Shown one piece after another: positions 5,117-25,914 of a stretch of DNA of 40,639 bases; the first letter of the stretch is position 1, and every line of letters starts with the position of its first letter. The notes under the pieces were generated by a model. The model made no database searches, had not been told where the DNA came from, and was given only the letters and a program-made list of their open reading frames with translations. Made by a program: the position numbers and the translations under genes. This DNA comes from Clostridiales bacterium DTU074 (GTDB lineage: Bacteria; Bacillota; Clostridia; Caldicoprobacterales; Caldicoprobacteraceae), in the NCBI GenBank assembly GCA_001513075.1, contig LFSE01000123.1, positions 1 to 40,639 on the forward strand, read 5' to 3'.

Positions 5117-5620
5117 TCATTCCCCTATAATCTGCACAATAACCGTGCGCTCCCTGGCGCGGGTATGATCAAAGTCCACAAAATATATATGTCCGAAATC
5201 CCCTAATTCCAGGTCACCATCGATAATGGGGACAATCTCGCTTCTCCCCATAATCGAAGACCTTAGATGGGCATCGGTATTGAGGGTCCCGGGCTTATCC
5301 TCCCCGTGCCGGGCTGCAAATTCCGTCAGTTCGGGACCGGGATGCATATATTGCCCTTCCTTTCTGCAGGTGGGGATTATTTTTTCAAAAACATCCACCA
5401 GATCCTGCTGCAAATATGTAAGCCCTGTATAAGCCTTGTCAAATGAATCCCCTTCTATCATGACAGCGCACGTGGTATGGCGGGAATATACAACGCAGAT
5501 GCCGGATTGAATATTCGAGCGTTTTACTATTTTCCTTACCTTTTCAGTAACCGTGTGAAAAGTCGGCCGCATGCCCGTAGAACGCACTTTGAAAGACTCC
5601 CAAATTGTTTTCACGTTCAT
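5117..5620 (-). CDS. YjbQ / UPF0047 family protein (secondary thiamine-phosphate synthase family)
   Basis: A 167-aa single-domain protein that aligns by eye with the YjbQ family: SRHTTCAVMI near residue 46, a conserved LNTDAHLRSSIMG stretch near 113, then GDLELGDFGHIYFVDFD. The conserved His residues in HTTCA and DAHLR are the family's likely active site. Some members have weak thiamine-phosphate synthase activity, but the physiological role is not settled. It overlaps the preceding isomerase gene by 4 nt, and GGGGAGGA supplies the ribosome binding site, so the two proteins are translationally coupled. Confidence 0.9.
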   Translation of the reverse strand: MNVKTIWESFKVRSTGMRPTFHTVTEKVRKIVKRSNIQSGICVVYSRHTTCAVMIEGDSFDKAYTGLTYLQQDLVDVFEKIIPTCRKEGQYMHPGPELTEFAARHGEDKPGTLNTDAHLRSSIMGRSEIVPIIDGDLELGDFGHIYFVDFDHTRARERTVIVQIIGE

Positions 5621-6333
5621 TCCTCCCCTGTTTTACTCATTTTGGCCAGATCTTCTTTTGCCTTTCTAACGTGATATATCATTTCATCCAGCAAAGCAAA
5701 GGGATCGGGGGACTTGAGTATCCCCGAAGCCGAGCCTGCCCCGTCATTTCCTGCCATTATAAACTCGTATACCTGGCTGGCCTTGGTAATCCCAGCCGCT
5801 TGCTCCACAAGGATATCGGGAGCTATGCTCTTTATTGCAGCCAATGTCTCTTTCACATAACTCATATCGCTGGCTTGATCGGTCCCGATTAATTCCGTTG
5901 GTTCGGGATTGATGATATCCGGATGAAACTGAGCTATGGCCTTTGCTTCAGCTACCGAATCGGCACACGCAAAAGTAATCAGATCCAGTTCATTTGCCCT
6001 CTCAATTGTTTTTTTGATGGCTGCAAGGGTCATCGGCTTCTCACAATGGTTTAGCAGCACACCCTTGGCACCCGCACACTTTATGGCTTCAGGAAGAACA
6101 TCGGCTATTCCCCGCCCGGGCCGAATCGGATCCATATAAGGGGCAAAGACAATAAGCCTCTCCGTGTTTTCACATATTCTCCTGATTTCGGTATATGGGG
6201 CAATGAAGAGCACATCAATATCATACTTCTTTGCGGCTTCATCTGCAGCCTTTGCGTATTCCAGCACCGCATCACCGTAAATATAGTTCTTTACACTTGT
6301 TTCGAAGAATGGCGTTCTTGGTAATACTTTCAT
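5617..6333 (-). CDS. Triosephosphate-isomerase-like protein (short, archaeal-type TIM fold)
   Basis: A 238-aa protein of the triosephosphate isomerase superfamily. Visible features are an N-terminal KNYIYGDAV segment, APYMDPIRPGRG, the LNHCEKP motif holding the catalytic His, and NPEPTELIGTD holding the catalytic Glu, followed by the phosphate-loop region (GNDGAGSASGI). It is shorter than standard bacterial TpiA (about 250 aa) and resembles archaeal TIM and the TIM-like isomerases of four-carbon sugar phosphates. A housekeeping tpiA is therefore not implied. The ATG at 6333 follows AGGAGGGGTGTAGCA; the upstream frame to 6369 lacks a ribosome binding site. It is the first gene of a two-gene operon with yjbQ, with a promoter at 6462-6491. 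Confidence 0.85.
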   Translation of the reverse strand: MKVLPRTPFFETSVKNYIYGDAVLEYAKAADEAAKKYDIDVLFIAPYTEIRRICENTERLIVFAPYMDPIRPGRGIADVLPEAIKCAGAKGVLLNHCEKPMTLAAIKKTIERANELDLITFACADSVAEAKAIAQFHPDIINPEPTELIGTDQASDMSYVKETLAAIKSIAPDILVEQAAGITKASQVYEFIMAGNDGAGSASGILKSPDPFALLDEMIYHVRKAKEDLAKMSKTGEE

Positions 6334-6461
6334 TGCTACACCCCTCCTGATCATAATTACGGCGTTCAACTGTGATGACGAATTATTCTCGTTTCAGACT
6401 AAAACAAGCATGCGATAGTTTACCTAAAACTTATGTGCCCAAATAACCTTGCCTTTTAATT

Positions 6462-6653: not shown

Positions 6654-7328
6654 TCATCCAATTTTATTCCTATTCATATAGAATATCGCCCCTATGCTTA
6701 TAGCTATAAGAACTGGCCGTATATGTATCAGATAAGGTGAAAGCTGCATCAGAGGTCTCATGGCAGGATTTCCGGGCATGACTACCAAAGCCAGAACGGC
6801 AATGACTACGGGCAAAAAAGCAACCACTAGAAAAAGAAACGCAACAGACATCCCGACAAATCTGCTTCCGGGACTTAGCTTTTTGCAGAAGGCGAACAGT
6901 ATCATCATTATAAAACACGGCAGGGCCATCAGAATAGCCGTCACAGCTGATGCAATTACGCTACCAGCTCCCATGGACGGCAGCTGAAAAATCTGAAATA
7001 ATATGGTAGTAGACAGCGCACCAAATACAGGTGCCAATGAAGAGAAAGAACCTATAATAAAGCCGGCTCGCCGGATCCCGCTGGCTCCCAGGACAGCAAA
7101 AATAAAGAATGCTGCCAGTAAAACAGATGCAAGTATTCCTACTATCAGTTGAAAATTAAATATTGCGCCCTGATAGGAGGCAATGTCCATTTTTCCCGTC
7201 AGAATCATTGTGGACAGGATCCTCTGTCCAATAAAAGACACAAGCCCGAAAAGCGTAAAAGTGATTAATAAACCCGGCACAGCCCAATGATATTTATCAG
7301 TTAATGGTCCCTGAATTGTGTCCTTCAT
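6654..7328 (-). CDS. Yip1-family integral membrane protein
   Basis: A 224-aa protein with about five hydrophobic segments (near 18-40, 60-83, 95-112, 120-148 and 158-185, plus a weaker one near the end). The pattern and the repeated F-x-x-x-x-G and small-residue helices fit the bacterial Yip1 domain. Function is unknown in bacteria. The ATG at 7328 has GGGGGAAAGAGAAT in front. It is the last gene of the carbohydrate-transport operon, 15 bases behind the GH172 gene, so it is likely co-expressed with the importer and may act in membrane handling of the same substrate. Confidence 0.7.
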   Translation of the reverse strand: MKDTIQGPLTDKYHWAVPGLLITFTLFGLVSFIGQRILSTMILTGKMDIASYQGAIFNFQLIVGILASVLLAAFFIFAVLGASGIRRAGFIIGSFSSLAPVFGALSTTILFQIFQLPSMGAGSVIASAVTAILMALPCFIMMILFAFCKKLSPGSRFVGMSVAFLFLVVAFLPVVIAVLALVVMPGNPAMRPLMQLSPYLIHIRPVLIAISIGAIFYMNRNKIG

Positions 7329-7343
7329 ATTCTCTTTCCCCCT

Positions 7344-8654
7344 TTATTCTTCCTGGGATAAAGCTCGCTCCTGATTAGTCAGGACAGCTACAACAACGTT
7401 TAACGCTTTGCTCAGCTCCCTTAGTTCATCCAGTTCCAATTCATGAAAATTGGCTATATACTTCTTTATCAAACGTATCTGAGGCAGTTCATTGTTCATG
7501 TCATACAACTCCTTTTCATCAAAATCCGGTATAGATTTTACCCGTTCCAGCAAATCTACATGGACCGGCAATTCATTTTCGGGCTTATCCAGGTAGAAAT
7601 AACAGCAGCTGGTCCAGTAATCCGATCGTTCAAACAAGTCAAAATCCGGAAGGTCCGGATCGGAAAAATCAATAGGCTCCACAGACTCCTTAGCAAAAAG
7701 ACCTGCACGTGGTACCTGAACTCCGTTTTCTATAAAATAGCGGATAAGCTCACTGTTCCAGCTTCCTATCTGTTGAATGGTAACCCTTATATTCCTGTGA
7801 AAATAAACAGGGTCCGGAATATGGAAGCGATAAAAGCAGAGCTGCATCCTTTCCTCATCTGCTACGGTACATCCCTGATACCGGTGGCTGTATACCCCTT
7901 GGCACCAGCCCGTACCTATATAATCCTCTGTTCCGGTACCGCATAGTGTCGGATATTCATCATCATCGTCCAGGTAAAATTTTACCTCGCCTTCACCTCC
8001 CCAGGAATGGGCGTATTTTTCCTTATCCATAAACACTCCGAAGGATACCCCTAAAAAACGTCCCTTACCGTTAACCCGGGGCAGGATGGTATAATCCCTG
8101 CGCAGGGTGGTAGGCAGTTCCTGATTGTACCAGGCATGAAAGTACAGAGCATCTTCGGGAATGCTATCCCCGATAGTATAGTCAACGTCATAATACAGCA
8201 TATTGGCGGTAGTAAAACCATCGTTGACAATCCTTATCTTCATTCCCCTTTTAAAAGGCATGGGTATATGGCAGTTCACCGAACGGCCTTCGGGACTGGA
8301 AAAGCATGCATTTTCAAAAGCCGTCATCCTTCCCAGTCCTATACCGAAGAAGTCGCCCAAGGGGACATTGACGGCAGGCCGGCTTGCTTCATCCCAATAT
8401 ATTTCCAGGCGAAGCTGCTTCAGCAGCCTGGGACACAGGCCATGGAGAGTCATCCATATGCGATGAACTATCCCGCTGTTGTTCTTAACCTCCGCCAAGG
8501 TTAATGCTTCACCTGGCCGGATAAAGAGATAGGGGGAGCCTTTCCTTCCAAAAGAACTCTTTCCTCCTCCACCTTTTCTCCCCCACACATTTTCAGGGCT
8601 GGCCCATCTGGTATGTACACCTTCAGGTACTCTGTAAAAATCATGATCTGTCAT
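7344..8654 (-). CDS. DUF2961 family protein, glycoside hydrolase family 172
   Basis: A 436-aa protein of the DUF2961 family, now GH172. Members act on difructose dianhydrides and on D-arabino- or fructofuranosides. Hallmarks seen: the N-terminal SPYLFIRPGEALTLAEVKN and GIVHRIWMT segment, the central VPLGDFFGIGLG, and GTGTEDYIGTGWCQG, which carries a strictly conserved Glu. No signal peptide, so it is cytoplasmic and would act on imported oligosaccharide. The ATG at 8654 (MTDHDFYRVPEG) has GGTGAT in front; the open frame upstream to 8729 lies inside the permease gene. It follows the permease stop by 8 bases. The preferred sugar cannot be told from the sequence. Confidence 0.88.
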   Translation of the reverse strand: MTDHDFYRVPEGVHTRWASPENVWGRKGGGGKSSFGRKGSPYLFIRPGEALTLAEVKNNSGIVHRIWMTLHGLCPRLLKQLRLEIYWDEASRPAVNVPLGDFFGIGLGRMTAFENACFSSPEGRSVNCHIPMPFKRGMKIRIVNDGFTTANMLYYDVDYTIGDSIPEDALYFHAWYNQELPTTLRRDYTILPRVNGKGRFLGVSFGVFMDKEKYAHSWGGEGEVKFYLDDDDEYPTLCGTGTEDYIGTGWCQGVYSHRYQGCTVADEERMQLCFYRFHIPDPVYFHRNIRVTIQQIGSWNSELIRYFIENGVQVPRAGLFAKESVEPIDFSDPDLPDFDLFERSDYWTSCCYFYLDKPENELPVHVDLLERVKSIPDFDEKELYDMNNELPQIRLIKKYIANFHELELDELRELSKALNVVVAVLTNQERALSQEE

Positions 8655-8662
8655 ACTATCAC

Positions 8663-9547
8663 CTATCCTTTTATTCCGCCAACTATCAGACCCGTTGTAA
8701 AATATTTCTGCAAAAAGGGGTAAACGCATATAATTGGTATCATGGCTATAAACAGCTGTGCGGATTTTGTGGTTTTATCGCTTATTATCTTCAATAAGTC
8801 CAGATCCCGCTCCGTCAGAGTAGTTGGATCCCGGCTGATCACTATGGTCTGCATATAGCTCTGTAGGGGATACTTATCCGGATTGTTCATCAGAATTAAA
8901 CCGTCAAACCACGAATTCCAGTGATTAAGCATGGAAAACAACGTGACTGTGGCCAAAGTAGGAACGGATATGGGCAGAAATATCTTCCACAGGATACACC
9001 AGTGGCTGGCACCGTCCATATACGCCGCCTCTTCCAGTTCAGCGGGAATACTCCTGAAGTAGTTTACCAGAAGTATGACGTTAAAGACCGGAACCGCTCC
9101 CGGTATTATCATAGCCCAAATGGTATCCAATAGGCCCGTCTCCTTAATGACCATATACCAGGGTATCATTCCCCCGCTAAACAGGATTGTAATTAGGAAA
9201 AACCAGGTAAAGAACGTTTTCATCCTAAACTGCTCTTTTCTGCGCGATAAAGGATAAGCGGATAAAACCGTCAGAAGCATATTTATGGGCACACCCAGTG
9301 CCACCCTTTCAGCCGATACCGCAAAGGCCTTTAAAAACGCATTGTTCTCAATGACATAGCGGTAAGACTGCAGGTTAAATTCCACCGGCAGAATCAGCAC
9401 CCGGCCACTGGATGCAGCCGTACTGGAGGACATGGAAAGCGCCAGTACATGCAGGATCGGGAAAAAACAAGTGGCCGCCAGGAAAAACAGCACCCCATAA
9501 TTCATTATCAAAAACAAAATATAACCCGGACTTTTTTTGAACTTCAA
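8663..9547 (-). CDS. Carbohydrate ABC transporter permease, LplC/YtcP type
   Basis: A 294-aa membrane protein with about six helices. The binding-protein-dependent permease EAA loop is clear: EEAAYMDGASHWCILWKIF near residue 180, which contacts the ATPase. The opening FFLAATCFFPILHVLALS and ending YFTTGLIVGGIKG are typical of LplC/YtcP permeases for oligosaccharides. It pairs with the LplB-type permease 12 bases upstream. No ATPase gene is in the operon; such systems usually share a single MsmX-type ATPase encoded elsewhere. Confidence 0.93.
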   Translation of the reverse strand: MKFKKSPGYILFLIMNYGVLFFLAATCFFPILHVLALSMSSSTAASSGRVLILPVEFNLQSYRYVIENNAFLKAFAVSAERVALGVPINMLLTVLSAYPLSRRKEQFRMKTFFTWFFLITILFSGGMIPWYMVIKETGLLDTIWAMIIPGAVPVFNVILLVNYFRSIPAELEEAAYMDGASHWCILWKIFLPISVPTLATVTLFSMLNHWNSWFDGLILMNNPDKYPLQSYMQTIVISRDPTTLTERDLDLLKIISDKTTKSAQLFIAMIPIICVYPFLQKYFTTGLIVGGIKG

Positions 9548-9559
9548 ATTGTAACCTCC

Positions 9560-10480
9560 TTAAAATACCCTGTATCCTCCTATCTTCTCAGCCGCCTTAT
9601 TGGATGCGACTATAAAGATAGTTGCAACTACTGATTTTATCAGTCCTATGGCTGTAGCCACCCCAAACTGGTAATTCTGAATCCCCATGCGGTATACAAG
9701 GGTATCAAGAATATCTCCCGTACTGTATACCATCGGGCTGTAAAGATTAAAAATTTGTTCAAAGCCTGCATTAAGGATGTTCCCTACGCTTATCACCGAC
9801 AGCAGAATAATGGTTGTGGATATTCCGGGCAGGGTAATATGCACGGTCTGCTGCCATCGATTGGCTCCATCTATTAGAGATGCCTCATACAGGTTCGGAT
9901 CGATAGACGTTAACGCCGTCAAATAAACAATAGTTCCGAAGCCAAAGTTCTTCCAGACATCGGTAACCACAATCGTATAGGGAAATATCTTCTCATCCCC
10001 CAAAAAGAATATGGGCTCAATTCCTATGTACCCCAGCAGTTGATTCACTATACCATCGGAAGGAGACAGTATGGTTATTATAATCCCCGACAGTATAACC
10101 CAGGACAGGAAATAGGGCAGGTATATGATCGTCTGGACCGTCCGTTTAAATGCAATATGGTGCACTTCATTCAGCATAAGGGCCACCGTCACCGGTACTA
10201 TAATGCCCAATACGATCTTCATACCGGATATAAACACCGTATTATATACAACGCTCCATATGTTGGGCATTTTAAACATGTAGACAAAATTCTCCAGACC
10301 TATGAATTCGGATCCGAATAAGCCCTTACCCGGTAAAAACCTTTGAAAAGCGATTACATTTCCAACCATCGGCCCATAGGCATATACCAGCAGAATAACC
10401 ACAGCAGGCATAAGCATTATATACAGAGGAATTTCACGTTTCAGCTGCTGAACTTTCCTTGATCTCATTGCAGATTTCAT
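9560..10480 (-). CDS. Carbohydrate ABC transporter permease, LplB/YteP type
   Basis: A 306-aa membrane protein with six predicted helices. The EAA loop reads YEASLIDGANRWQQTVHITLP, and the N-terminal region has LPAVVILLVYAYGPMVG, both typical of LplB/YteP. The ATG at 10480 is chosen because AAAGGAG lies just upstream and does not overlap the binding-protein gene; the frame is open to 10516, which would overlap that gene. It forms the heterodimeric channel with the next permease and works with the lipoprotein encoded before it. Confidence 0.92.
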   Translation of the reverse strand: MKSAMRSRKVQQLKREIPLYIMLMPAVVILLVYAYGPMVGNVIAFQRFLPGKGLFGSEFIGLENFVYMFKMPNIWSVVYNTVFISGMKIVLGIIVPVTVALMLNEVHHIAFKRTVQTIIYLPYFLSWVILSGIIITILSPSDGIVNQLLGYIGIEPIFFLGDEKIFPYTIVVTDVWKNFGFGTIVYLTALTSIDPNLYEASLIDGANRWQQTVHITLPGISTTIILLSVISVGNILNAGFEQIFNLYSPMVYSTGDILDTLVYRMGIQNYQFGVATAIGLIKSVVATIFIVASNKAAEKIGGYRVF

Positions 10481-10503
10481 TGCAGTCCCTGCTCCTTTCA
10501 GCT

Positions 10504-12153
10504 CTAGTTCCTCCACCAGTCGTTAACCTCCCTGGTGATTTCTTCTCCTCCCAGCTTATACCATTCCTCGACAAAAGTATCAAAGCTCTCCAATGGCTCC
10601 CCCATGATAGTTTTTATCATCATTTCATCTTCCATGGTATGAAGAGCGGCCATCTTTTCTGACATAACCCTGGTAGGAGCGCCATAGAACCGATTGACCA
10701 TACCGCCCCCCTGGGCAATATTCTTTAGGATGCTGACCGAACCATTTTCACCATAGGTTGCAACCTCCACCCAGGCCTCTTTTATACCCTGATCAAAATA
10801 TGCGGATATAATCTGATACCTTTGCCATTCATCATGGTTTAAACCATCGGTGTTCCGGCTTGCCAATGCTTTTTTCACATTCTCATAAGTTCTCAGTATG
10901 GAATTGGGTTCCCACAAATGAAAATCAGTATATTTATATTTCACCACATCCGGATTGTCCAGGGAGCCAAGGTAGGCGTCCCTTAACTCTTTGTCATTGC
11001 TGAACAGAAAATTATCGCACCAGAAGTTAAGCAGCTTAAATACGGCCTCAGGATGGGGATAACCCTTCCGCACAACGATAATGGAACCAACGGCTGCAGA
11101 ATACTGGCTCTTTGCAGGCGTATCATCAATGGAAGGGATGGGGTATGCCTGCCAATAGGCATCGGGATAATTTGCCTGACTCAGGTACAAGGGACTGTAA
11201 GGGTTCCACCACACCCCAAATTCTATACCGCATTTGTTGTTTGCTATGGTTTCAGCTACCTTATTGATGTCCTTTACGCCAAATTCCTTATCAATCTCCC
11301 CGTTCTTATACATTTCCTGCAGAACAGCCAAAGCCTGCCTGGCTTCCGGCTGTATTGTACCGTACACTAATTCTCCATCCCTTTCAATCCATATCCGGGG
11401 GTATGCGTGGAAACCATTGAAAAAACCCTGCAGTCCGGCATAAGCGCCCCAAAGCTCTTTAGAGACGGCCAGGCCGATGGTATCTTTTATACCGTTTCCA
11501 TCCGGATCCCCCTCCACAAATCTTCTGGAGATTTCCATAAGGTCCTGCATGGATTCAGGGGGATCAATATTCAGTTTTTTCATCCAGTCCTGTCGTATCC
11601 ATAAAAGGGGTGCATTGGCTATAGACGCATCAGTTATGGGGACACCCATAAGCTTACCATCAATGGTGGTACAGGGGAGAGCCAGCTCATCCTGCTCCAG
11701 CACCATCCTTGTAGTCTCCGAAGCATGGGTCTCGTATATTTCACTGATATCCTCTATCAGATCACTGTCGTATAACATTTTAAAAAGCAGAGGATCGCAG
11801 ACAAATACGTCCGGTATATCTCCCGACATAATGGTGGCGGTCAGTTTTTGTTGGTACTGGGAATTATCCACTACCCACATATAGGATAGATTAATGCCCA
11901 GCTCCTCGGCATATGTGCGGGTCCAAATATTGTTGTATATATCTTCTCCTTCGAGAAATTTCACCGTAGCATCTACGGATTTTACGGAAACAAGCTCAAT
12001 GGCCGGACTGTATTTCTCTTCAACAATAAACTTAAAACCGGATGTAGTTTGTTCCGTTTCCGTATTCTCTGAACTAGTGGATTTACAACCATAGACAAAA
12101 AAGGCAAAGCAAATCAATAACACGACAATTACACACTTTTTATATGCAGGCAT
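10504..12153 (-). CDS. Extracellular sugar-binding lipoprotein (LipO/YtcQ type)
   Basis: A 549-aa solute-binding protein. An N-terminal signal (residues 5-22) ends in a lipobox with VYGC, so Cys23 would be lipidated and the protein anchored outside the membrane. The size, the RQDWMKKLNIDPPESMQDL motif and the DPDGNGIKDTIGL calcium-loop-like motif are typical of large LipO-type binding proteins paired with LplB/LplC. The ATG at 12153 follows GGGGGATAAACAT; two upstream Met codons lack such a site. It lies between the alpha/beta hydrolase and the permeases, in one run of minus-strand genes. It probably sets the substrate range of the importer. Confidence 0.92.
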   Translation of the reverse strand: MPAYKKCVIVVLLICFAFFVYGCKSTSSENTETEQTTSGFKFIVEEKYSPAIELVSVKSVDATVKFLEGEDIYNNIWTRTYAEELGINLSYMWVVDNSQYQQKLTATIMSGDIPDVFVCDPLLFKMLYDSDLIEDISEIYETHASETTRMVLEQDELALPCTTIDGKLMGVPITDASIANAPLLWIRQDWMKKLNIDPPESMQDLMEISRRFVEGDPDGNGIKDTIGLAVSKELWGAYAGLQGFFNGFHAYPRIWIERDGELVYGTIQPEARQALAVLQEMYKNGEIDKEFGVKDINKVAETIANNKCGIEFGVWWNPYSPLYLSQANYPDAYWQAYPIPSIDDTPAKSQYSAAVGSIIVVRKGYPHPEAVFKLLNFWCDNFLFSNDKELRDAYLGSLDNPDVVKYKYTDFHLWEPNSILRTYENVKKALASRNTDGLNHDEWQRYQIISAYFDQGIKEAWVEVATYGENGSVSILKNIAQGGGMVNRFYGAPTRVMSEKMAALHTMEDEMMIKTIMGEPLESFDTFVEEWYKLGGEEITREVNDWWRN

Positions 12154-12178
12154 ATGTTTATCCCCCTTTTTATTCATA

Positions 12179-12940
12179 CTAAACAAATCGCTTCATCCAT
12201 TCGGAGAGCTCAAGATTCATTTCTGTCGTGTCGCTGTGGCCTACCCCGGGATACATGGAATATTTAAGCGCGCTTTTATCAAAGAAAATCGGTCTTAACA
12301 TTTCATAAAGTTTTTTTACCCCTGCCGGCGGGGTCACGGAATCCTTCTCTCCGCATAACATCAACAGCGGAGTATCCTTCATAGCCTCATACCGATTGAT
12401 GGGCTGGATTGTTTCCGCTATTTTTAAATATTCTTCAACCTGCGATTCATGGCTTAATATGCCCCGGGCTTTCAGATCTGCCATCATTTCATCGGTTTTT
12501 AAGCGTTCTACTATCGACACCCAATCCGGTGTACTTATAACCGGTACCGCTGCCTTTATTTTTTTATCCATTAACGTAATATAGGAAAAAGTTATACAGC
12601 CTCCCATAGAGTAGCCGGCAAGTCCCACCCTGGTATAATCAACTTCTCGGCTGTCCTTATAGCTGTCAATTATCATATTTATCTCAGACACGCTTTTCGT
12701 AATGCTGGTGAAAAGATCGACAATTTGTCCACTGCTTCTTTCTCCATGTCCATATGCATCGGGAACAACTACAAAAAAACCATTAACTGCCAACAGATAT
12801 GCCTGAGGGAGGATAAATTCCTTTCTTCCCAGGTATCCGTGATAAACAATAATCATTGGCTTTTTTAAAATCTGATCCATTCTGAACAATTCCAGCAGGG
12901 GAACACCTTCTATATTGTTATTTCGAACAATAATCTCCAT
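12179..12940 (-). CDS. Alpha/beta-hydrolase (esterase or acyl-hydrolase, prolyl-oligopeptidase-like)
   Basis: A 253-aa cytoplasmic hydrolase. The nucleophile elbow GYSMGG places the catalytic Ser at 111. The acid is likely in CGEKDSVTPP and the His in PGVGHS near the C-terminus. The oxyanion region is YHGYLGRK (33-40). The fold resembles YitV/YjfP-type esterases. The ATG at 12940 follows AGGAGAGAGCTGGG. It overlaps no coding sequence but starts 20 bases behind the amidohydrolase stop, so they are co-transcribed. In this operon it could remove acyl groups from an imported glycoside; this is inference. Confidence 0.85.
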   Translation of the reverse strand: MEIIVRNNNIEGVPLLELFRMDQILKKPMIIVYHGYLGRKEFILPQAYLLAVNGFFVVVPDAYGHGERSSGQIVDLFTSITKSVSEINMIIDSYKDSREVDYTRVGLAGYSMGGCITFSYITLMDKKIKAAVPVISTPDWVSIVERLKTDEMMADLKARGILSHESQVEEYLKIAETIQPINRYEAMKDTPLLMLCGEKDSVTPPAGVKKLYEMLRPIFFDKSALKYSMYPGVGHSDTTEMNLELSEWMKRFV

Positions 12941-12960
12941 CCCAGCTCTCTCCTCCCCGC

Positions 12961-14019
12961 TCAAAGATCTCGTATAAGTTTTACGGCATTGTCATGGTAT
13001 ATTTTCTTAAGTATGGAATCCTCCAGGCCAATCCCATATGTAGGCCACATACCGCCGGTAATATACTCATCCCAGGTTTCCAGAAAGCGGAAGTACGGTT
13101 CATACTGATAGCCAAGGTTATGGGTGTAGACATCGGTACCAAATAAAATGCGATCCTGGTACCGGATAAAGAATTTACGGGACGAGTAGGGCTGCCGTCC
13201 TAATTCATTGATCCTGGCAGCTATGTCAATATACATATTTGGATATTTGTCCAGACATTCGCCTACAAATTTTAAATTCTCACTGTTGGAACCTACATGA
13301 GCGATGATAAAGGTGGTATCGGGATTGTTGGCCAGAAGGTTCTGCTGAGCCTCCATCAGCTCCTCAAATGTGTAAGTCCCGGTATTGTAATAGGACCATT
13401 CCGGATGCGCTTTTAACTCAAGATACCGCTCGTTGTATTGATCAACCGGATCAAAAAAAGCTTCCGGATCGGCAATATGAGCCAAAACCGGCATTTTTAA
13501 CTCTCTGGCGGTATCCCAGATAACAGCCAGCCTTTTATCATCTATCCGGATATTTCTCCCGGGCACATACACCCCCGGCTCTTTCTCAATCATGAGACTG
13601 ACATGCTTAAAGAGTTTTATGCCTTTTGCTCCCAAATCACGGGCCTTTTTTAAATGCTTTCTGACGTGCTTTTCAAAATTCGGTTCATTTACCAGATTGG
13701 TATTGACGGAAACAAAAGTTATGAAAAAATCCCGGTGCCTTTCAAAGGCAGCAAATATTTCTTCCTGCGTCAAGCCAAAAAAGCCATCCCAAAACCCATC
13801 CAGGTTTACCACCCTAATGATACCGTGCTGACGAAAGGTATCAACTATCCTGTCAATATCGGGCTTTACCCATCGGCCGCTGTCTGCATACAGGCTGCAA
13901 TAAAAGTCTGCAAAATGCCCGTGAAAATCAATGGCAGGATATCTCGACCTGGTTACCCTGTGGGATTCCGTCTTAAGCTTATGTTTCGGGCAGTATTCAT
14001 GAAGATAAACAGACTCCAT
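12961..14019 (-). CDS. Amidohydrolase-superfamily TIM-barrel hydrolase (COG2159-like)
   Basis: A 352-aa protein of the amidohydrolase superfamily. Metal-binding signatures are seen in order: H-x-H in DFHGH (H33, H35), AHIAD, FIIAHVG and FGTDVY with the conserved Asp. This matches COG2159 decarboxylase/hydrolase-type enzymes, which act on aromatic acids or lactones. No signal peptide. The ATG at 14019 is preceded by GGGAGAGGGGTCTT. It is the first gene after a 109-base gap behind the response regulator, where an extended -10 promoter is seen. It opens the transport operon, which suggests that the substrate or its breakdown product contains a lactone, ester or aromatic group. Confidence 0.85.
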   Translation of the reverse strand: MESVYLHEYCPKHKLKTESHRVTRSRYPAIDFHGHFADFYCSLYADSGRWVKPDIDRIVDTFRQHGIIRVVNLDGFWDGFFGLTQEEIFAAFERHRDFFITFVSVNTNLVNEPNFEKHVRKHLKKARDLGAKGIKLFKHVSLMIEKEPGVYVPGRNIRIDDKRLAVIWDTARELKMPVLAHIADPEAFFDPVDQYNERYLELKAHPEWSYYNTGTYTFEELMEAQQNLLANNPDTTFIIAHVGSNSENLKFVGECLDKYPNMYIDIAARINELGRQPYSSRKFFIRYQDRILFGTDVYTHNLGYQYEPYFRFLETWDEYITGGMWPTYGIGLEDSILKKIYHDNAVKLIRDL

Positions 14020-14048
14020 AAGACCCCTCTCCCATTTTGTTTGCCTTA

Positions 14049-14057
14049 ATTATAACA
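14049..14057 (-). promoter_or_regulatory. Extended -10 element before the amidohydrolase-transport operon
   Basis: Minus strand TGTTATAAT (14057-14049), about 30 bases before the start codon at 14019. No good -35 box is seen. It would fit a promoter activated by the adjacent YesN-type regulator. Confidence 0.4.
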
Positions 14058-14128
14058 GGGCTCATGTAGGGGTTCTATATAAGAGTCTTTACTTATATTT
14101 ATAAATTTTTACATATTGAATATCACCA

Positions 14129-15424
14129 TTATCTGCACTTTGTCCGAAATTCCAATGGAGTCATGCCGGTGTGCTTTTTGAACGCCTGGTTAAAGTAGGA
14201 GGGGGAAGCAAAACACAGCTCGTCAGCAATTGCAGCAATTCTCTTGTTTGTATTTATCAATAGTTCCTTAGCCTTCTCCATTCTCATAGCTGTTATATAA
14301 CCTGTTAGATTCATCCCAGTACTTTTTTTGAACAGCCTGGACAAATATGATGCGTTGTAATAGACTTCATTGGCCAGGCTGGTCAAGGATATGGGGCGTC
14401 CCAGGTTTTCTTTAATATACTCTTTGACCAGTTCTATAGCATGACTGGTGCTCATGGAATATTGCATCCTGCTGTTATGGGGAGAAGAAATTGTTTCCTT
14501 ATCCAGTACAATAAGCCCCATTCCATGGATTTCACTGTCCTTTAGCATATTTTCAATTCTTCTGTAATAGTATCCCAGATCTTTCATATATACGGTTTCA
14601 TCATAAATAATAAAAGACATGACAACATTTGATTCCTCGGAAAAACCATTCTGCATCATTTCCGCCAACCCTTTCATTTCGGTCACTGGGCTGGGAAGAT
14701 CTGCACTGGCCGCCCGGCTTCGATGGCTATCATGGGGCTGCAGGATCATTACAAAGGTATTCGGTTCCCGCTCGTCCAAAATCACATTGTAGCGGGGCAG
14801 GATATATCTGCAGGTCATTTCATTCAGTACAGAATACAATTCCGATCGCTGTCTGAAATCCATATCATTGCTATGAGAAAAACGTCCCAGCATCATATAG
14901 ACGGGAATTTCTGAACTCATTGGTATGTTCATATTTGATAAAATATGATCAAGATCCTCCGGCTTCACCGTTTGCTCCCCCAGGATAAAATCGACAAACT
15001 TGTGGGAGAATTCCAAGCCGGACCTGTAGGGCTGGCTGAGTTTGGCTTCCTTTTGTATCCTATTCACAGCACTGTGCAGGCTTTCGGCTATTTTTTCATA
15101 CCCCTCTGTTTTCAGAATATAGTTTACAGCCCCCAGCTGATTGGCTTCATATATATAATCGAATTCCGGATAAGCGCTTAAGAATATAACCTGGCACTCA
15201 GGCCACCGTTCTTTAACCAGCCGGGTCATCTCCAGCCCGTCCATACCCGGCATGCGAATATCACTCAGTACGATGTCAATCCTTTCCGAATTGAGTATCT
15301 TAATGGCATCATAGGCAGAATATGCCCTGAAAATATCCAGTTCCAGACCTTCATAATCGTAAAATGCATTATAAAGCCCTTCCACTATATCGGGTTCATC
15401 ATCCACGATAAGTAACCTGTACAT
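14129..15424 (-). CDS. Response regulator, YesN type (receiver plus AraC DNA-binding domain)
   Basis: A 431-aa regulator. The receiver domain spans about 1-120, with the acidic pair in VDDEP (8-9), the phospho-acceptor D55 in SDIRMPG and a conserved Lys near 105. A middle region of about 200 residues follows, then a C-terminal AraC-type double helix-turn-helix from about 335 (ISLTSLANEVYYNASYLSRLF and IAAIADELCFASPSYFNQAF). The partner is the YesM-type kinase whose gene ends 9 bases upstream. YesM/YesN pairs in Firmicutes switch on sugar importers and glycosidases; here the target is probably the amidohydrolase-transport operon. Confidence 0.94.
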   Translation of the reverse strand: MYRLLIVDDEPDIVEGLYNAFYDYEGLELDIFRAYSAYDAIKILNSERIDIVLSDIRMPGMDGLEMTRLVKERWPECQVIFLSAYPEFDYIYEANQLGAVNYILKTEGYEKIAESLHSAVNRIQKEAKLSQPYRSGLEFSHKFVDFILGEQTVKPEDLDHILSNMNIPMSSEIPVYMMLGRFSHSNDMDFRQRSELYSVLNEMTCRYILPRYNVILDEREPNTFVMILQPHDSHRSRAASADLPSPVTEMKGLAEMMQNGFSEESNVVMSFIIYDETVYMKDLGYYYRRIENMLKDSEIHGMGLIVLDKETISSPHNSRMQYSMSTSHAIELVKEYIKENLGRPISLTSLANEVYYNASYLSRLFKKSTGMNLTGYITAMRMEKAKELLINTNKRIAAIADELCFASPSYFNQAFKKHTGMTPLEFRTKCR

Positions 15425-15433
15425 CTCTGACCC

Positions 15434-17218
15434 TCACAAATCCCTTTTTTCATTATCTTTATTTAACTGATCAGCAATCGCCAGTTTTAACACAACCTTC
15501 AGCCCGCCCATTTCGCTGCGTGAAACAAACAGACCGCTATCCCTGCCCAGGCTTAAAATAATTCTCCTGTGTATATTTATAAGACCGGTACACTGCATAT
15601 TGTCTTCATCCCCGGCCAGCTGGGTTTTCAGCTTCTCAATATCCTCATCACTCAGTTCTCCCCCGTTATCCTCCACTATTATATTTACAAAGGGATTATC
15701 AGTTTCGAATCGGATCCTCAACATGCCATTCTCTACGGTGTTTTTCAGCCCATGTTCAAAGGCATTTTCGACTACCGGCTGGAGAATAACCTTCGGGACA
15801 AGACAATCATGCAGTTCTCCCGGAAGCTGGTCGAATTCCATTGTTATGCGATTTCGAAAGCGGTGAGCCTGAAAATTGGCATAAATCCTGGCATGCTCCA
15901 CTTCATCGTACAGCCTGGATAAATGGCTTGAGCTCCTTGTAATATATTGAAAATAAGTTCCCATATGCCTAGCAAAATCTGCAAGGTTTTCATAATCTTC
16001 ATTTATTGCCATATCATAGAGTACAAAATAACTGTTATAAAGAAAATGGGGATTTATCTGAGATTGGAACTGCTTTAACTGCGACTCCTGATATAGAATT
16101 TTTTGCTTATACACCTGATCAATCAGGTTACTGATTCGATCAAGCATGGAGTTAAAGGATAAATAGAGATATTTGAATTCATTATCACCTGTATAATATA
16201 TTTTATTGCTGAAGTTTCCTGATTCAACCTGGCGGAATGCACTAACCAGCCTGTCCAACGGCTTTTTTATCTGATTGTTTATTATATAAAGAAATAGCAG
16301 GGCCAAAATAGCCGTGAGCGCCGTAAATATCCAAAAATACGGTTTATATCTGCCGAGTGGCCTGTAAATCTCCTGAGCAGATGTATAATTTACAAGGCTC
16401 ATTCCGGTATATTGGTCATGATAAACCGTTACTATATACTGGCTATCCCGGTATTTCACCGTTTTTGTAATGGCGCCGGCTGTCCTGTCCGTATTTTCAT
16501 CATGGTTAAATGCCGGATGGGATGCAAAAAATATTGCTGCTTCCTCATCTCCCACACCAACGATTGAAACTGACCTTTCTTTGTTTATGAAAGCAGCTCC
16601 TCCCCTGGATTTCCCTTTTAGCATATTAAGCGCACTTCGTATTTTTACCGATGAATACTCCGCTTCAATAATATAGGCAGGAAATTCCCTGTTGTCCCTA
16701 TACTGCTGAGGTGATGTCACAATGGATATGGGAGTTTGCCCGTTAAACAGCAGCTGTCCGTCTCCTCCATAAGCAATTCTGCTTATCGCATGATAATGTT
16801 CGAGGGATATGTGGGAAATGCTTCCAACGGCATGAATACTCCTGCCAATATTCATCAGATGCACGGATACGTTGCTCAACATATCACTGCTACCCAATAT
16901 TGCGGTCAATCGGGTTTGCACCCGATTGACCGCAAAGACTCCTTCTATACCGGTATCGGCATCGCCAAAAGCTGACAGCCTGACTATGTCCTTGTCCGTC
17001 AAGAGAGTAGATTGTTGCTTTATTATGTTTTGGATCTCCGAACGGAACTTATCCAGATAGTACATTGTCTGAGTGCTCTGTGAGGAAATAAGTTCCTGCC
17101 GAAGCTGTGCAACAGCCCAATTGTATACTATAAAGCCTGCTGCATATACCGGTATAACCACAATCAAGAATGCCGTAAGAATATTGGCAAAGATGGATTT
17201 CCCCAGTTTAAGCATCAT
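15434..17218 (-). CDS. Sensor histidine kinase, YesM type
   Basis: A 594-aa membrane kinase. TM1 lies at about 10-32, an extracellular sensor region runs to about 290, TM2 lies at about 293-315, and a HAMP linker follows. The His_kinase core motif is QSQINPHFLYN, with phospho-acceptor His near residue 391, and the N-box is VVENAFEHGL near 485. The H-box with F-L-Y-N is specific to the LytS/YesM class. ATG 17218 is used; the frame has a GTG at 17224 and an ATG at 17215. The start overlaps the end of the GH116 gene by 11 nt, so glycosidase and sensor are translated together. The sensor region would recognise an extracellular saccharide. Confidence 0.93.
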   Translation of the reverse strand: MMLKLGKSIFANILTAFLIVVIPVYAAGFIVYNWAVAQLRQELISSQSTQTMYYLDKFRSEIQNIIKQQSTLLTDKDIVRLSAFGDADTGIEGVFAVNRVQTRLTAILGSSDMLSNVSVHLMNIGRSIHAVGSISHISLEHYHAISRIAYGGDGQLLFNGQTPISIVTSPQQYRDNREFPAYIIEAEYSSVKIRSALNMLKGKSRGGAAFINKERSVSIVGVGDEEAAIFFASHPAFNHDENTDRTAGAITKTVKYRDSQYIVTVYHDQYTGMSLVNYTSAQEIYRPLGRYKPYFWIFTALTAILALLFLYIINNQIKKPLDRLVSAFRQVESGNFSNKIYYTGDNEFKYLYLSFNSMLDRISNLIDQVYKQKILYQESQLKQFQSQINPHFLYNSYFVLYDMAINEDYENLADFARHMGTYFQYITRSSSHLSRLYDEVEHARIYANFQAHRFRNRITMEFDQLPGELHDCLVPKVILQPVVENAFEHGLKNTVENGMLRIRFETDNPFVNIIVEDNGGELSDEDIEKLKTQLAGDEDNMQCTGLINIHRRIILSLGRDSGLFVSRSEMGGLKVVLKLAIADQLNKDNEKRDL

Positions 17219-19667
17219 TTTCACCTGAATGGCCGTTTCCCGCTTTTACCTTTATTCCCTCAAGGCTTCCGTATAAAACCTTTACATCCGTTTCAAGCTT
17301 GCCGGTAACCTTGTCACGCTTTTGTGAGTATATGCCCCATGCCTTGCCACAGCTGAAGAAACAGGAAAAGTCATCCTTATTGATCACGGGATCGAAAGAA
17401 ATTTCGCCTTTTACAAGGTCAAACTTATAACCGCTCAGGGCAGGGATAAGAGCCCAGCTGGCTAACGATCTGGCATAGTGGTTGCCGCATTCCACTTCAT
17501 TCCAGGGATTTCGTCTGATTCCGTCGTGCCTGTCCCTGACCGCCTTGACTATTGTTAAACCTTCATCTATAAAACCTTCATAGATGAGATGGGCAGCAAC
17601 CTGGTATTCAATACCTGTCCATACTTCATCCGAATAAACGAAAGGAAATTTGGGCCTTCCACCGTAAGGCCAGGAACAAAGCACCAGGCCTTTTTCGTCA
17701 TTCAATGCATAGGTACGCTGTGTATTGCAGTGATCGTAAAAGTTTTCGAAGAAGTTATATTTGAACACCGAGTATATGGCTTTTTTGATATGATCCTCGG
17801 GCAATATATAACCCAGTCCTGCTACATGGGACAGCAGCTGGCCAAGAATCTGATCGGACAGACATCCCTTCCCGTATTGATACTTATACTCATTAACATT
17901 GTCTATTGCCTGGATATAGTACTCGCCGTTCCACAGCATTTCATCCATTCTGGCCGAACCAAGTTCCAAAGCCTTTCTGTATCTTTCGGCACTTTCCGTA
18001 TCACCAAGAGTTTCCGCCATCTCCGCACCGGCCTTCAACGCTCCGAAAAACATGGAGTTGACCAGGCTGTTGGGACCATAGAATTCAATATCATATGTAT
18101 TGTGCTGCTGGCTGTCCAACACAAAATCCCCGTCCGAGTCCCAGTGGGTAAAAGCAAAGTCCAGTGCCTTTTTAGCATTGGCCCATACCTGTTTCAAAAA
18201 ATCGTTATCGCCGCTCAACTTCCAATCGCGATATAGCCGTATAATACATCCCAACTGTCCATCAGCGGCAGGATGATAATCAAACATATCACCAAAAAGC
18301 CTCTTTGTCCTGAATGCCATTTTCCCATCGGCATCAGTTTCCACATTGAACTCAGTAAGCCTGAAGTCCCTCTCCAGTGAAGGGAACAAAAAAGCCAGAG
18401 TCTGGGTATAATTCCATACATGTGTACAGTTGCCCTCACAGCAGCCGGCTCCGTCAAAACAGCCCTCCCAGCCAAAGAACTTGCCATTTTCCAGCCAAAA
18501 ACAGGTAGTGCTCCGTATGACGGTTATATTGCTGGCGACTGCATCTATAACGTAGTCGGGAAGAGTGCTGTTAAATAACGCATCGTGGAAATCAACGGTG
18601 CTTTTATAAAGCCTGTCGTAATTGCTCATAGTGTATCTAGCCACATCCCAGGCATCTTTAAATCGCACAGCATAGTGGTTTCTCGTCATTTGACAATCGC
18701 AGGCAGATCCGCAACACTCCTGAGACCAGTTATTGATGCGATTGGGGAAATACCAGGTGAGTAAAAACAAAAACTCCTTTTCGCCATGAGCATCTATAGT
18801 ATCGTAAGCACCTATACTGCCAAATCTGTAGGAATGGTCGGCCGGTGGAAAACCGGTATCGCTTTCATACTCAAACCTACCGTCATCCGAGAAATCGTCC
18901 CACATATCCTGAAAAGAATCAAACCAGTTGCCCACATACCAGTTCGGTTTTACCGTTACGTTGGGTGCCGTAGTTGAAAGCGACAAATTTCCATATCGGA
19001 GATGTCGCTTGTCAAGCTCAGCCCCATAGAAATAAATCCCGGAAAACCCCTTATCCTGCCTGTATTCATTCGTGTTTCCTTTCATAAAATCCATTTTGGG
19101 ATATATAAACACCCCAAGACCATCGAAACCCGCGGGGTTCATCAGAGAGCCGGCTATGGATACGTCAACGGGCTTATCAGTCAGATTCTTTACTTTATAT
19201 TTCAGCACAGCACAGGGAATCCCCGAATCATCGGGATTCAAAGGAATGAAAGGTGTGAAAGCTTCCAGACAAACTTCAACCGGCATACCTTTATCCTGCA
19301 GCTTCACCCAGACGAAGGGATACTCCCCTCGAAGCTGGGACTTTTCAAACCTGGGCATCCCAGCAACCTGACCCGGATTAAGGCCATGGGAGTCGGAATA
19401 AGGCGGGCTGATGCGACTTTCCAAAACCTTTGTTACAGGGGCCTCCCCCTCTTCCTTAACCCAAATAGCGAAAAAGGAGTAGGGCAGCACACAGCCTTTG
19501 TTCGGTTTATTGAAAATTTCCCAGTCCCTAAATTCGCCCCTGGCGCCTATAGAAACGTTGCCGGTCCCAATCCCTCCAAGCAAAAAGGCTGCCTCGTTCA
19601 TTGTTCTGTCAAAGCTGCGAAAGTTACCATAAGAGTATAGTTCTTCCTTTGGGAATACCTTTGACAT
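17208..19667 (-). CDS. GH116-family glycosidase (glucosylceramidase/GBA2-like; beta-glucosidase or beta-xylosidase)
   Basis: An 819-aa protein matching family GH116. An N-terminal beta domain carries GGIGTGNVSIGARGEFRDWEIFN. A catalytic (alpha/alpha)6 region has CTHVWNYTQTLAFLFPSLER and HNTYDIEFYGPN. Near the C-terminus are WTGIEYQVAAHLIYEG and ARSLASWALIPALSGY. Length is close to characterised bacterial members (about 800 aa). No signal peptide, so it is cytoplasmic. The family cleaves beta-glucosides or beta-xylosides; I do not assign catalytic residues by number. The ATG at 19667 has AGGAGGTTTTAGC, among the best sites in the window. It heads the kinase/regulator operon. Confidence 0.92.
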   Translation of the reverse strand: MSKVFPKEELYSYGNFRSFDRTMNEAAFLLGGIGTGNVSIGARGEFRDWEIFNKPNKGCVLPYSFFAIWVKEEGEAPVTKVLESRISPPYSDSHGLNPGQVAGMPRFEKSQLRGEYPFVWVKLQDKGMPVEVCLEAFTPFIPLNPDDSGIPCAVLKYKVKNLTDKPVDVSIAGSLMNPAGFDGLGVFIYPKMDFMKGNTNEYRQDKGFSGIYFYGAELDKRHLRYGNLSLSTTAPNVTVKPNWYVGNWFDSFQDMWDDFSDDGRFEYESDTGFPPADHSYRFGSIGAYDTIDAHGEKEFLFLLTWYFPNRINNWSQECCGSACDCQMTRNHYAVRFKDAWDVARYTMSNYDRLYKSTVDFHDALFNSTLPDYVIDAVASNITVIRSTTCFWLENGKFFGWEGCFDGAGCCEGNCTHVWNYTQTLAFLFPSLERDFRLTEFNVETDADGKMAFRTKRLFGDMFDYHPAADGQLGCIIRLYRDWKLSGDNDFLKQVWANAKKALDFAFTHWDSDGDFVLDSQQHNTYDIEFYGPNSLVNSMFFGALKAGAEMAETLGDTESAERYRKALELGSARMDEMLWNGEYYIQAIDNVNEYKYQYGKGCLSDQILGQLLSHVAGLGYILPEDHIKKAIYSVFKYNFFENFYDHCNTQRTYALNDEKGLVLCSWPYGGRPKFPFVYSDEVWTGIEYQVAAHLIYEGFIDEGLTIVKAVRDRHDGIRRNPWNEVECGNHYARSLASWALIPALSGYKFDLVKGEISFDPVINKDDFSCFFSCGKAWGIYSQKRDKVTGKLETDVKVLYGSLEGIKVKAGNGHSGENDA

Positions 19668-23355: not shown

Positions 23356-25914
23356 TTAGCCGGTGCACTCCATCTCCTTGGACCAGTAATGAAATCCTCC
23401 CTCAACAATCTGCATACCGTCAGGAGTCATAACTTCCGCGACAACGCCAAATGGAATGGTTACATACAGATGAATACGTCCAAATCTTTTGACCCATCGA
23501 ACGGTAATGTCACCCCTCACCGTTTCCAGGGTAGCCTGCACCGACATCAGATTTTCGGGCATATATGGGCGTATGGACACCCGCCGGTATCCCGCTTCCA
23601 GAGGTTTAATCCCGGCCAGGTAAGCATAGAACCAATATCCTACCGCACCGTACATCGGGTGATTGTGCGAATTCATTCCCGGGTTCTTTTTCAGCTCAAA
23701 CCGTTCCCAAACTGTGGTAGCCTCCTGCTGAATCATAAAACCAAAAGAGGGATATTCTTCCCTGGTTATAAGCTTCCAGGCATCTTCCAGATAACCATAC
23801 TCGGTTAAGACATCCATCAAATATCTTGTACAAAGATTGCCGGTTGTAAAGCGATAATTGCGGTTAACCAAATCATTGCGAAGCACGTCAGCAGCTTTCT
23901 GCCTGCCTTCTTCAGGAAGAATCCCAAGCCACAAGGCAAAGGCCTGACAGGCCTGAGAACCTGTTCCCACTTCCCCGGTCTCAGGATTCCACCATTTGCT
24001 CAAGAAAGCCCGTCTGATACATTCGGCTTTTCTTCTGAATTTCCGCCCTTCCTCATGTTTTCCCAAAACATCCGCCATGCGGGCAAGCAGTTTGGTATTA
24101 AAATAATAATAGCCCGTCGACATGAATATACCGGGAGTTTCGGATGAAACCGCTCCGTCCTCACCTATACATGCGTATGCCGGACTTGCCCAATCTCCGT
24201 AATAGCTATATTGAACAATGTGGTTTTCGCTTCTGCTTTCCAAAAATGCATTCCATGCCTTAAATCCCTCATATCCCTCGGCAATGATATCAGCGTTGCC
24301 CGTATGCATATAAGCTTCCCAGGCTGCAATCAGAAATGACGAGCATACCGGATCCGCAGGTCTTGATCCAAAGGCAAAGGGCGCAGTACAGGTAATGCTG
24401 CCATCCTCGGCCTGTACATCCAGAATATCCCTCACCACCTTCGGAAAAATTCGCCCAATATCAAAGTTATAAGGGGTTTCCTCAAATCTAACCGTTGCAT
24501 CATTCATCCAGCCCATTCTTTCATCCCGCTGGGGACAATCCGTCAGAATGCTGTGTATATTCGCCTTTTCCGTCTGAACCACATTCTTCTGAATCGCATT
24601 TACCAGGGCATTGCCGCATCGGAAATAGCTTCGGGTTGCAATATCGGTATATAAGCTGACGGCACAGATATCTTCTTTGGTCAGCGGTTCGCCATAACCG
24701 GTAATCTGAGCATAGCGAAAGCCATGATATGTAAATTTCGGCTGCCAGTATTCCATATCCTTCCCGTCTCCAATGGCTATATAACGATCGGTACAGGCGG
24801 CATATCTCAGATTCGGTAAATAAAGGGTGCCATCATCATCAAGGAATTCCATATGGGAAATGGTTATGGTCTGACCGGCTTTCATGGTTCTTGGAATGCG
24901 AATCCTGCATACTCCCGCAATGTTCTGTCCAAAATCCACCACATATACACCATCTTTTACCTGGCTGACCGCTATTGCCGGATATACTTCCTGAGCGCGT
25001 ACCGGTTCCAGCGTCTGTACCGCCATTTTACCTCCCGGCCCGTCAACTATCTTAACCGGCATTGCATTTTCCTCTGGGGAACCGGGTATGGTCCAGTCAT
25101 GAATCTCCATAGACGCATCATAGGTTTCACCCATAAAGATATTGCTGTATGTAATTCCACCATATTGGTATCTCCAGTTTTCATCGGTATACAGCCACTC
25201 TTCCTCACCATTCCTGTATCGTATTTTTAATGCCGCTGTCAACTGGCTAATGCCAGCATACTCCGGAATGCGTTTTGAGTGTTTATAACATACATTATAA
25301 GGAGAGCGCCAGCCGGCAGCCACCTGTACGCCAATCCGGTTCTCACCCTTTTGTATCATGCCTTTTACGGGGATCACCGAATAATAGCAACGTTTTTCAT
25401 ACTCTGAAAAGGCCGGGTTCATATATACAGATGGTTCCAATTGCCTGCCGTTTATAGATACACTGTGATACCCGATACCACATACGAACAGGCAAGCAGT
25501 TTCAACTTCGTCTTTCGCTTCAAATGTTCTGCTGAAATAAATGACTTTATCCTCCTGGGGTTGTACTTCTCCTATCCATTGGGCCGGCCAGGGATCCAGC
25601 GTGCCGTAATAAAAGCGCCTCTTTTCCGGCGGGCTCACATTGCCAAGGCTGTCCTTCAGTTCCAGCACCAGTACGTTTTCCTCTCCGGGGATAAAAGCTT
25701 CTCCTCCATACACTGCTTTTTGTTCATCGGTCTCAACCCAGTTGGTATCCCACAAAATGCGTTCTCCGCAGATAACCCTGAGCCTGTATGCTGCCTGCGG
25801 AGCTTTACAGGAATCTACCGCCCATGTAATAACAGGTTTCTTACTCTCAATAACACAGTAGCCATCCTCGTAAGTCCTTCCATATTCCAGGCGAATCCGA
25901 TTTGCCTTTATCAT
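23356..25914 (-). CDS. GH78 alpha-L-rhamnosidase
   Basis: An 852-aa protein with the bacterial rhamnosidase layout: N-terminal beta domains including WPAQWIGEVQ and YHSVSINGRQLEPS, an (alpha/alpha)6 catalytic barrel, and a C-terminal beta domain. The family's catalytic-acid region is seen as ILTDCPQRDERMGW, followed by MNDATVRFEETPYNFD. Another conserved segment is FELKKNPGMNSHNHPMYGAVGYW. There is no signal peptide, so it acts in the cytoplasm on imported rhamnosides such as those from rhamnogalacturonan, gums or flavonoid glycosides. The ATG at 25914 has AGAAGGAGGTTATTATC, and a promoter is visible at 25956-25983. The gene stands alone apart from the short YHGS gene behind it. Confidence 0.94.
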   Translation of the reverse strand: MIKANRIRLEYGRTYEDGYCVIESKKPVITWAVDSCKAPQAAYRLRVICGERILWDTNWVETDEQKAVYGGEAFIPGEENVLVLELKDSLGNVSPPEKRRFYYGTLDPWPAQWIGEVQPQEDKVIYFSRTFEAKDEVETACLFVCGIGYHSVSINGRQLEPSVYMNPAFSEYEKRCYYSVIPVKGMIQKGENRIGVQVAAGWRSPYNVCYKHSKRIPEYAGISQLTAALKIRYRNGEEEWLYTDENWRYQYGGITYSNIFMGETYDASMEIHDWTIPGSPEENAMPVKIVDGPGGKMAVQTLEPVRAQEVYPAIAVSQVKDGVYVVDFGQNIAGVCRIRIPRTMKAGQTITISHMEFLDDDGTLYLPNLRYAACTDRYIAIGDGKDMEYWQPKFTYHGFRYAQITGYGEPLTKEDICAVSLYTDIATRSYFRCGNALVNAIQKNVVQTEKANIHSILTDCPQRDERMGWMNDATVRFEETPYNFDIGRIFPKVVRDILDVQAEDGSITCTAPFAFGSRPADPVCSSFLIAAWEAYMHTGNADIIAEGYEGFKAWNAFLESRSENHIVQYSYYGDWASPAYACIGEDGAVSSETPGIFMSTGYYYFNTKLLARMADVLGKHEEGRKFRRKAECIRRAFLSKWWNPETGEVGTGSQACQAFALWLGILPEEGRQKAADVLRNDLVNRNYRFTTGNLCTRYLMDVLTEYGYLEDAWKLITREEYPSFGFMIQQEATTVWERFELKKNPGMNSHNHPMYGAVGYWFYAYLAGIKPLEAGYRRVSIRPYMPENLMSVQATLETVRGDITVRWVKRFGRIHLYVTIPFGVVAEVMTPDGMQIVEGGFHYWSKEMECTG

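Follow-up and report, generated by a model that had tools for sequence, protein, structure and literature searches.

The ten minus-strand genes lying between positions 6654 and 19667 of the window (the whole stretch of DNA analyzed, 40,639 nucleotides) probably form a system that senses, imports, and degrades short oligosaccharides of D-arabinofuranose (D-Araf), that is, pieces of the D-arabinan of arabinogalactan and lipoarabinomannan (LAM) or of a similar D-Araf glycan. D-Arabinose is a rare sugar, occurring mainly in mycobacterial-type cell walls. The outline given by the initial annotation, in which a glycoside containing furanose units is sensed, imported, and degraded, is retained here, together with its gene order and content, for which Pfam confirmed nine of the ten genes.

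Organization of the operon

Read from position 19667 downward, the set begins with a GH116 glycoside hydrolase (17208 to 19667), followed by a YesM-type sensor histidine kinase (15434 to 17224; Pfam His_kinase and HAMP), kept in five related operons, and a YesN-type response regulator with AraC output (14129 to 15424; Response_reg and HTH_18). Downstream of these lie a PF04909 (COG2159-type) amidohydrolase (12961 to 14019; Amidohydro_2, 8e-20) and an alpha/beta hydrolase (12179 to 12940; Hydrolase_4/DLH/AXE1), a putative esterase acting on the imported glycan, which is kept in five operons including that of the window. The importer consists of a lipoprotein solute-binding protein (10504 to 12153; SBP_bac_1) and of LplB-type (9560 to 10516) and LplC-type (8663 to 9547) permeases, both matching BPD_transp_1, and the set ends with a GH172 (DUF2961) enzyme (7344 to 8654; Pfam 7e-69) and a membrane protein with six predicted helices (6654 to 7328). 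The starts of the GH172 (8654), solute-binding protein (12153), and esterase (12940) genes were chosen by ribosome-site spacing. Since adjacent genes overlap or are separated by 9 to 16 nt, with the single exception of 109 nt before the amidohydrolase gene, the ten genes are likely to constitute one operon, transcribed as a single unit. Promoter and terminator scans gave nothing clearly exceeding shuffled sequence.

The solute-binding protein resembles in its sequence the AlgQ-type oligosaccharide-binding proteins and carries the lipobox V-Y-G-C, read by eye; by the same kind of inspection, no export signal is apparent on the hydrolases of the operon. The operon contains no ATPase gene for the importer and no kinase or isomerase gene. 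Between the operon and a radical-SAM gene, a pair of genes for a TIM-like isomerase and a UPF0047 protein (5117 to 6369) was noticed; the sister genome G002 has no such pair at the corresponding place. The pair was considered for membership in the operon and discarded, since in G002 the radical-SAM gene directly follows the membrane protein gene.

Conservation of the operon and its removable modules

The initial annotation had made its single-system reading depend on conservation in other genomes, and such conservation is seen in the gene neighborhoods of related genomes. In Clostridiales DTU092 (L007), the same ten genes occur in the same order, on a contig that looks identical to G002:C248, where the membrane protein gene comes after GH172. 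The second locus (L020) has the arrangement GH116-YesM-YesN-solute-binding protein-LplB-LplC-GH172-membrane protein-esterase and lacks the amidohydrolase, and the third (L237) reads YesM-YesN-esterase-solute-binding protein-LplB-LplC-GH172-membrane protein, without GH116 and amidohydrolase. Two further copies, both cut by a contig end, preserve LplB-LplC-GH172-membrane protein-YesM-YesN (L236) and YesM-YesN-amidohydrolase-esterase (L199). Genomes without GH116 in the operon carry one elsewhere, and it was through this GH116 match that they were found. Since GH116 and the amidohydrolase are present in some relatives and absent from others, the core of the operon excludes both: it is made up of YesM, YesN, esterase, solute-binding protein, LplB, LplC, GH172, and membrane protein, to which GH116 and the amidohydrolase are added as removable modules.

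Predicted specificity of the GH116 and GH172 enzymes

In the GH116 protein, the Pfam search recognized both the N domain (2e-64) and the catalytic domain (2e-51). Its best relative among the solved structures is ExoMA2 (8ic6; 706 bits, E=6e-211, 46% identity), compared with 122 bits and E=3e-34 for the best beta-glucosidase structure. ExoMA2, the one characterized member of GH116 subfamily 4, is an exo-beta-D-arabinofuranosidase with the catalytic residues Glu431 and Asp557 and the specificity residues His446 and Arg483, in place of which the beta-glucosidase has Asp452 and His507; it is inactive on pNP-beta-D-Glcp (PMC10509167). The equivalents of E431, D557, H446, and R483 are retained in the window enzyme (E, H, R, and D at the aligned columns) and also in all 24 other GH116 relatives checked, so that they are to be read as a mark of the subfamily, which neither proves identical specificity nor separates subclasses. 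On the basis of these features, we predict the protein to be a cytoplasmic exo-beta-D-arabinofuranosidase of the ExoMA2 type (subfamily 4). The assignment to beta-glucosides or xylosides in the initial annotation, a natural misreading of a GH116 enzyme, is thereby corrected. The source genome encodes a second GH116 (L137:10678-13323, on G000:C93), 41% identical to the first and with the same four diagnostic residues, whose gene is followed by one for a URO-D-like protein and has no importer alongside.

These results also bear on the proposal that the locus serves a plant phenolic or iridoid glycoside, with GH116 as a beta-glucosidase or xylosidase, GH172 acting on a furanoside, and the amidohydrolase and esterase acting on the aglycone. 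A GH78 alpha-L-rhamnosidase gene (23356 to 25914), located upstream and outside the operon with several genes between, speaks for such a substrate, whereas the closeness of GH116 to an enzyme inactive on the aryl beta-glucoside, and its His/Arg pair at the glucosidase-type Asp/His positions, speak against it.

For the GH172 enzyme, the nearest PDB entry is the exo-alpha-D-arabinofuranosidase ExoMA1 (8ic8), with 36% identity, and the identity to DgGH172c is 33%. The residues described for subsite -1 of the difructose-anhydride enzyme alphaFFase1 (PMC8605356) have their equivalents in the window protein (W267, E270, E291, D292, W298, and Y187 in alphaFFase1 numbering), and both catalytic glutamates are retained. 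At the position of alphaFFase1 Gly299, which makes room for fructofuranose (PMC8605356), and of the fructofuranose-excluding Asn253 of ExoMA1, the window enzyme carries a Cys; the same Cys is found in DgGH172c, an enzyme with activity on alpha-D-Araf (PMC10115798). We thus predict, from the residues of the active site, a cytoplasmic exo-alpha-D-arabinofuranosidase, with a specificity less certain than that of GH116 because of the low overall identity (33 to 36%). Of the activities previously named for this enzyme, that on furanosides agrees with an alpha-D-Araf active site, and that on difructose anhydrides finds no support, a Cys standing in place of the Gly.

An import locus for alpha-fructofuranosides or difructose anhydrides, with GH172 working as alphaFFase1 does, has in its favor the membership of alphaFFase1 in the family and the ABC importer that adjoins the alphaFFase1 gene too. 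It appears scarcely probable to us, given that a clash with fructofuranose was deduced for the same Cys, at the Gly299 position, of BACUNI_00161 (PMC8605356) and that the GH116 linked to the window enzyme is of the D-Araf type. Three more GH172 genes occur in the source genome (L138:8069-9151, L139:1322-2428, and L140:3220-4338): one of the products shares 60% identity with ExoMA1 and carries Asn at the position governing specificity, another has a fructofuranoside-like Gly there, and the remaining one again has Asn.

Linkage of GH116, GH172, and GH183 across genomes

With the window GH116 as the query, 80 genomic loci were retrieved, and their 10-kb flanks were examined by tblastn. GH172 lies within 10 kb of GH116 in 21 of the 80 loci, compared with about 0.8 GH172 genes expected from their density in 41 of these genomes (127 genes in 215.5 Mb); a greedy ORF caller undercounted GH172, finding it in 11 of the 80. 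The endo-D-arabinanase GH183 was found within the flanks of 10 of the 80 loci, all 10 of which also have GH172. Furthermore, the search for GH183 (PF13810) returned no match in the source genome, which is 96% complete, or in the two genomes with the fullest operon copies, and was positive in 19 of the 41 related-locus genomes. Thus, of the elements of a complete D-arabinan locus, the window holds GH116, GH172, and the ABC importer and lacks GH183. Because the genome gives no GH183 match, we read the operon as that of a scavenger, which would take up D-Araf oligosaccharides set free by other organisms.

The same missing match can be taken as a sign that the enzymes and the importer, unchanged, have as their natural substrate another glycan built of D-Araf or of a look-alike furanoside; pilin glycans, exopolysaccharides, and archaeal glycans would be examples. 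This reading, which we consider rather unlikely, fits with the occurrence of subfamily-4 GH116 in Chloroflexi, Bathyarchaeota, and Paenibacillus, where in most cases no GH183 adjoins it, and with the cleavage of D-Araf pilin oligosaccharides by GH172 enzymes (PMC10115798). Against it stand the Actinobacteria and Cohnella, where the same type of GH116 is grouped with GH172 and GH183, and a genome of the same order with GH183 and GH172 beside an importer (L182:4714-14055, on G023:C108). The latter probably represents a more complete clostridial locus for D-arabinan.

Amidohydrolase, esterase, and membrane protein

The amidohydrolase has the invariant residues H33, H35, H181, H241, and D296, which correspond to the expected metal ligands (H-x-H, two more His, and an Asp). 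By sequence, it has no match among the solved structures, while the fold search placed it in the TIM barrels of the amidohydrolase-2 superfamily (Foldseek, 1.5e-11), with matches that are 9 to 16% identical. No single reaction could be named for it, since the fold matches mix decarboxylases, hydratases, and lactonases. Many of these relatives are aromatic-acid enzymes, e.g., 2,6-dihydroxybenzoate decarboxylase, LigW2, and LigJ, which is the second point in favor of a plant glycoside; their low identity weakens it, and elsewhere the amidohydrolase gene is often found in the vicinity of genes for sugar kinases, sugar isomerases, or class II aldolases (neighbors named from sequence motifs). This context and the fold argue for a sugar-linked reaction, and we regard the plant glycoside, with its phenolic or iridoid aglycone, as improbable. 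Two near-syntenic blocks (L174/L196 and L175/L197, on G000:C137 and C126) join an amidohydrolase paralogue to genes for an isochorismatase-like protein, a sugar isomerase, and an FGGY kinase; they reflect either a duplicated segment or a mixture of strains in the metagenome-assembled genome (MAG).

Close relatives of the amidohydrolase are rare (7 of 391 genomes of the class at E<=1e-70), and in three loci besides the window its gene lies near GH172. In the first (L176:1-13029, on G023:C112), the operon comprises ABC permeases, NHL, Yip1, DUF5696, LplB, LplC, the amidohydrolase, a large divergent GH172 (620 amino acids) that the amidohydrolase gene overlaps, and another alpha/beta hydrolase, an Abhydrolase_7 esterase; it is the same enzyme trio as in the window with a different GH172 type. 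In the second (L177), the amidohydrolase is 1.5 kb from GH172 on the opposite strand, and in the third, from Massiliimalia timonensis (L205:8868-11001), a gap of 53 nt separates it from a divergent GH172 downstream, after which come LacI-like, PfkB-like, and aldolase-like genes. Since the divergent GH172 proteins of L176 and L205 have altered subsite -1 residues, the common theme is GH172 generally and no single substrate. What really remains of the earlier reading is that GH172 is accompanied by the amidohydrolase and the esterase. Moreover, D-arabinan bears succinyl esters (PMC10503756), which are therefore a plausible target for the putative esterase.

The membrane protein had been labeled Yip1, a label that its sequence does not support: a Pfam search at E<=1 returned nothing for it, Yip1 (PF04893) included, and the hhalign comparison of the protein to a true Yip1 of a relative gave a probability of 0.3%. 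The AF2 model shows six helices at moderate confidence (pLDDT 70), and the fold search with this model returned no significant match. Full-length homologues occur in 4 of the 391 genomes of the class, all in this type of operon, and in L020; from these comparisons, the protein appears to be its own small family.

Proposed function

Direct sequence tests support the enzyme assignments, and the remaining steps of the following scheme are those that we infer. A signal sensed by YesM would lead YesN to activate the operon; the oligosaccharide would be captured by the lipoprotein and imported via LplBC, with an ATPase presumably encoded elsewhere. In the cytoplasm, the alpha/beta hydrolase may strip ester groups, e.g., the succinyl esters of D-arabinan, GH116 is predicted to trim terminal beta-D-Araf and GH172 to trim alpha-D-Araf, and the free D-arabinose would pass to a FucI-type isomerase, the gene for which lies at C90 in the source genome. 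The amidohydrolase could be an add-on acting on the sugar or on a decoration. It is possible to hypothesize, more tentatively, that the esterase, amidohydrolase, and six-helix membrane protein are responsible for steps not yet described in the import and utilization of decorated D-arabinofuranosides, the first two stripping substituents that block GH116 and GH172 and the third aiding import or signaling.

Should the proposed function be correct, the uptake of D-arabinose oligosaccharides, for which biochemical descriptions so far come from Actinobacteria and gut Bacteroidetes, would extend to uncultured anaerobic Clostridia, and the operon would provide an importer under YesMN control as well as candidate enzymes for the de-esterification of D-arabinan. 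Scavenging by an organism that has no endo-enzyme of its own would imply that it is cross-fed from the cell walls of mycolata. The named close relatives are, we presume, MAGs from anaerobic digesters, where mycolata biomass arrives with sludge.

Comparison with known systems

The import loci of the LplBC/YesMN type in Bacillota are made up of YesM/YesN, a lipoprotein, and LplB/LplC, with no ATPase in the operon. Their glycoside hydrolase cargo is different from that of the window, which is GH116 and GH172. In the alphaFFase1 locus of Bifidobacterium dentium (PMC8605356), GH172 likewise adjoins an ABC importer and is cytoplasmic, but its fructofuranoside-accepting Gly corresponds to Cys in the window enzyme, and GH116 is absent. 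PUL42 of Dysgonomonas gadei (PMC10115798) shares with the window GH172 alpha-D-arabinofuranosidases, one of them with the same active-site Cys, and a GH116 candidate in the cluster; different from the window operon, it is a Gram-negative polysaccharide utilization locus and has GH183.

The initial annotation knew of no described system of this kind, whereas the combination of GH116, GH172, and an ABC importer was published in 2023 as the set for the D-arabinan of mycobacterial arabinogalactan and LAM (PMC10509167). The D-arabinan locus of Microbacterium arabinogalactanolyticum reported there contains homologues of the window enzymes, ExoMA2 (GH116) and ExoMA1 (GH172), an ABC importer, and cytoplasmic exo-enzymes. 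Compared to it, the window operon lacks GH183, the isomerase, and the kinase and has YesMN, the amidohydrolase, the esterase, and the membrane protein. The GH116/GH172 pair is thus already known, and the new part lies in the two extra enzymes and the membrane protein that travel along with it.
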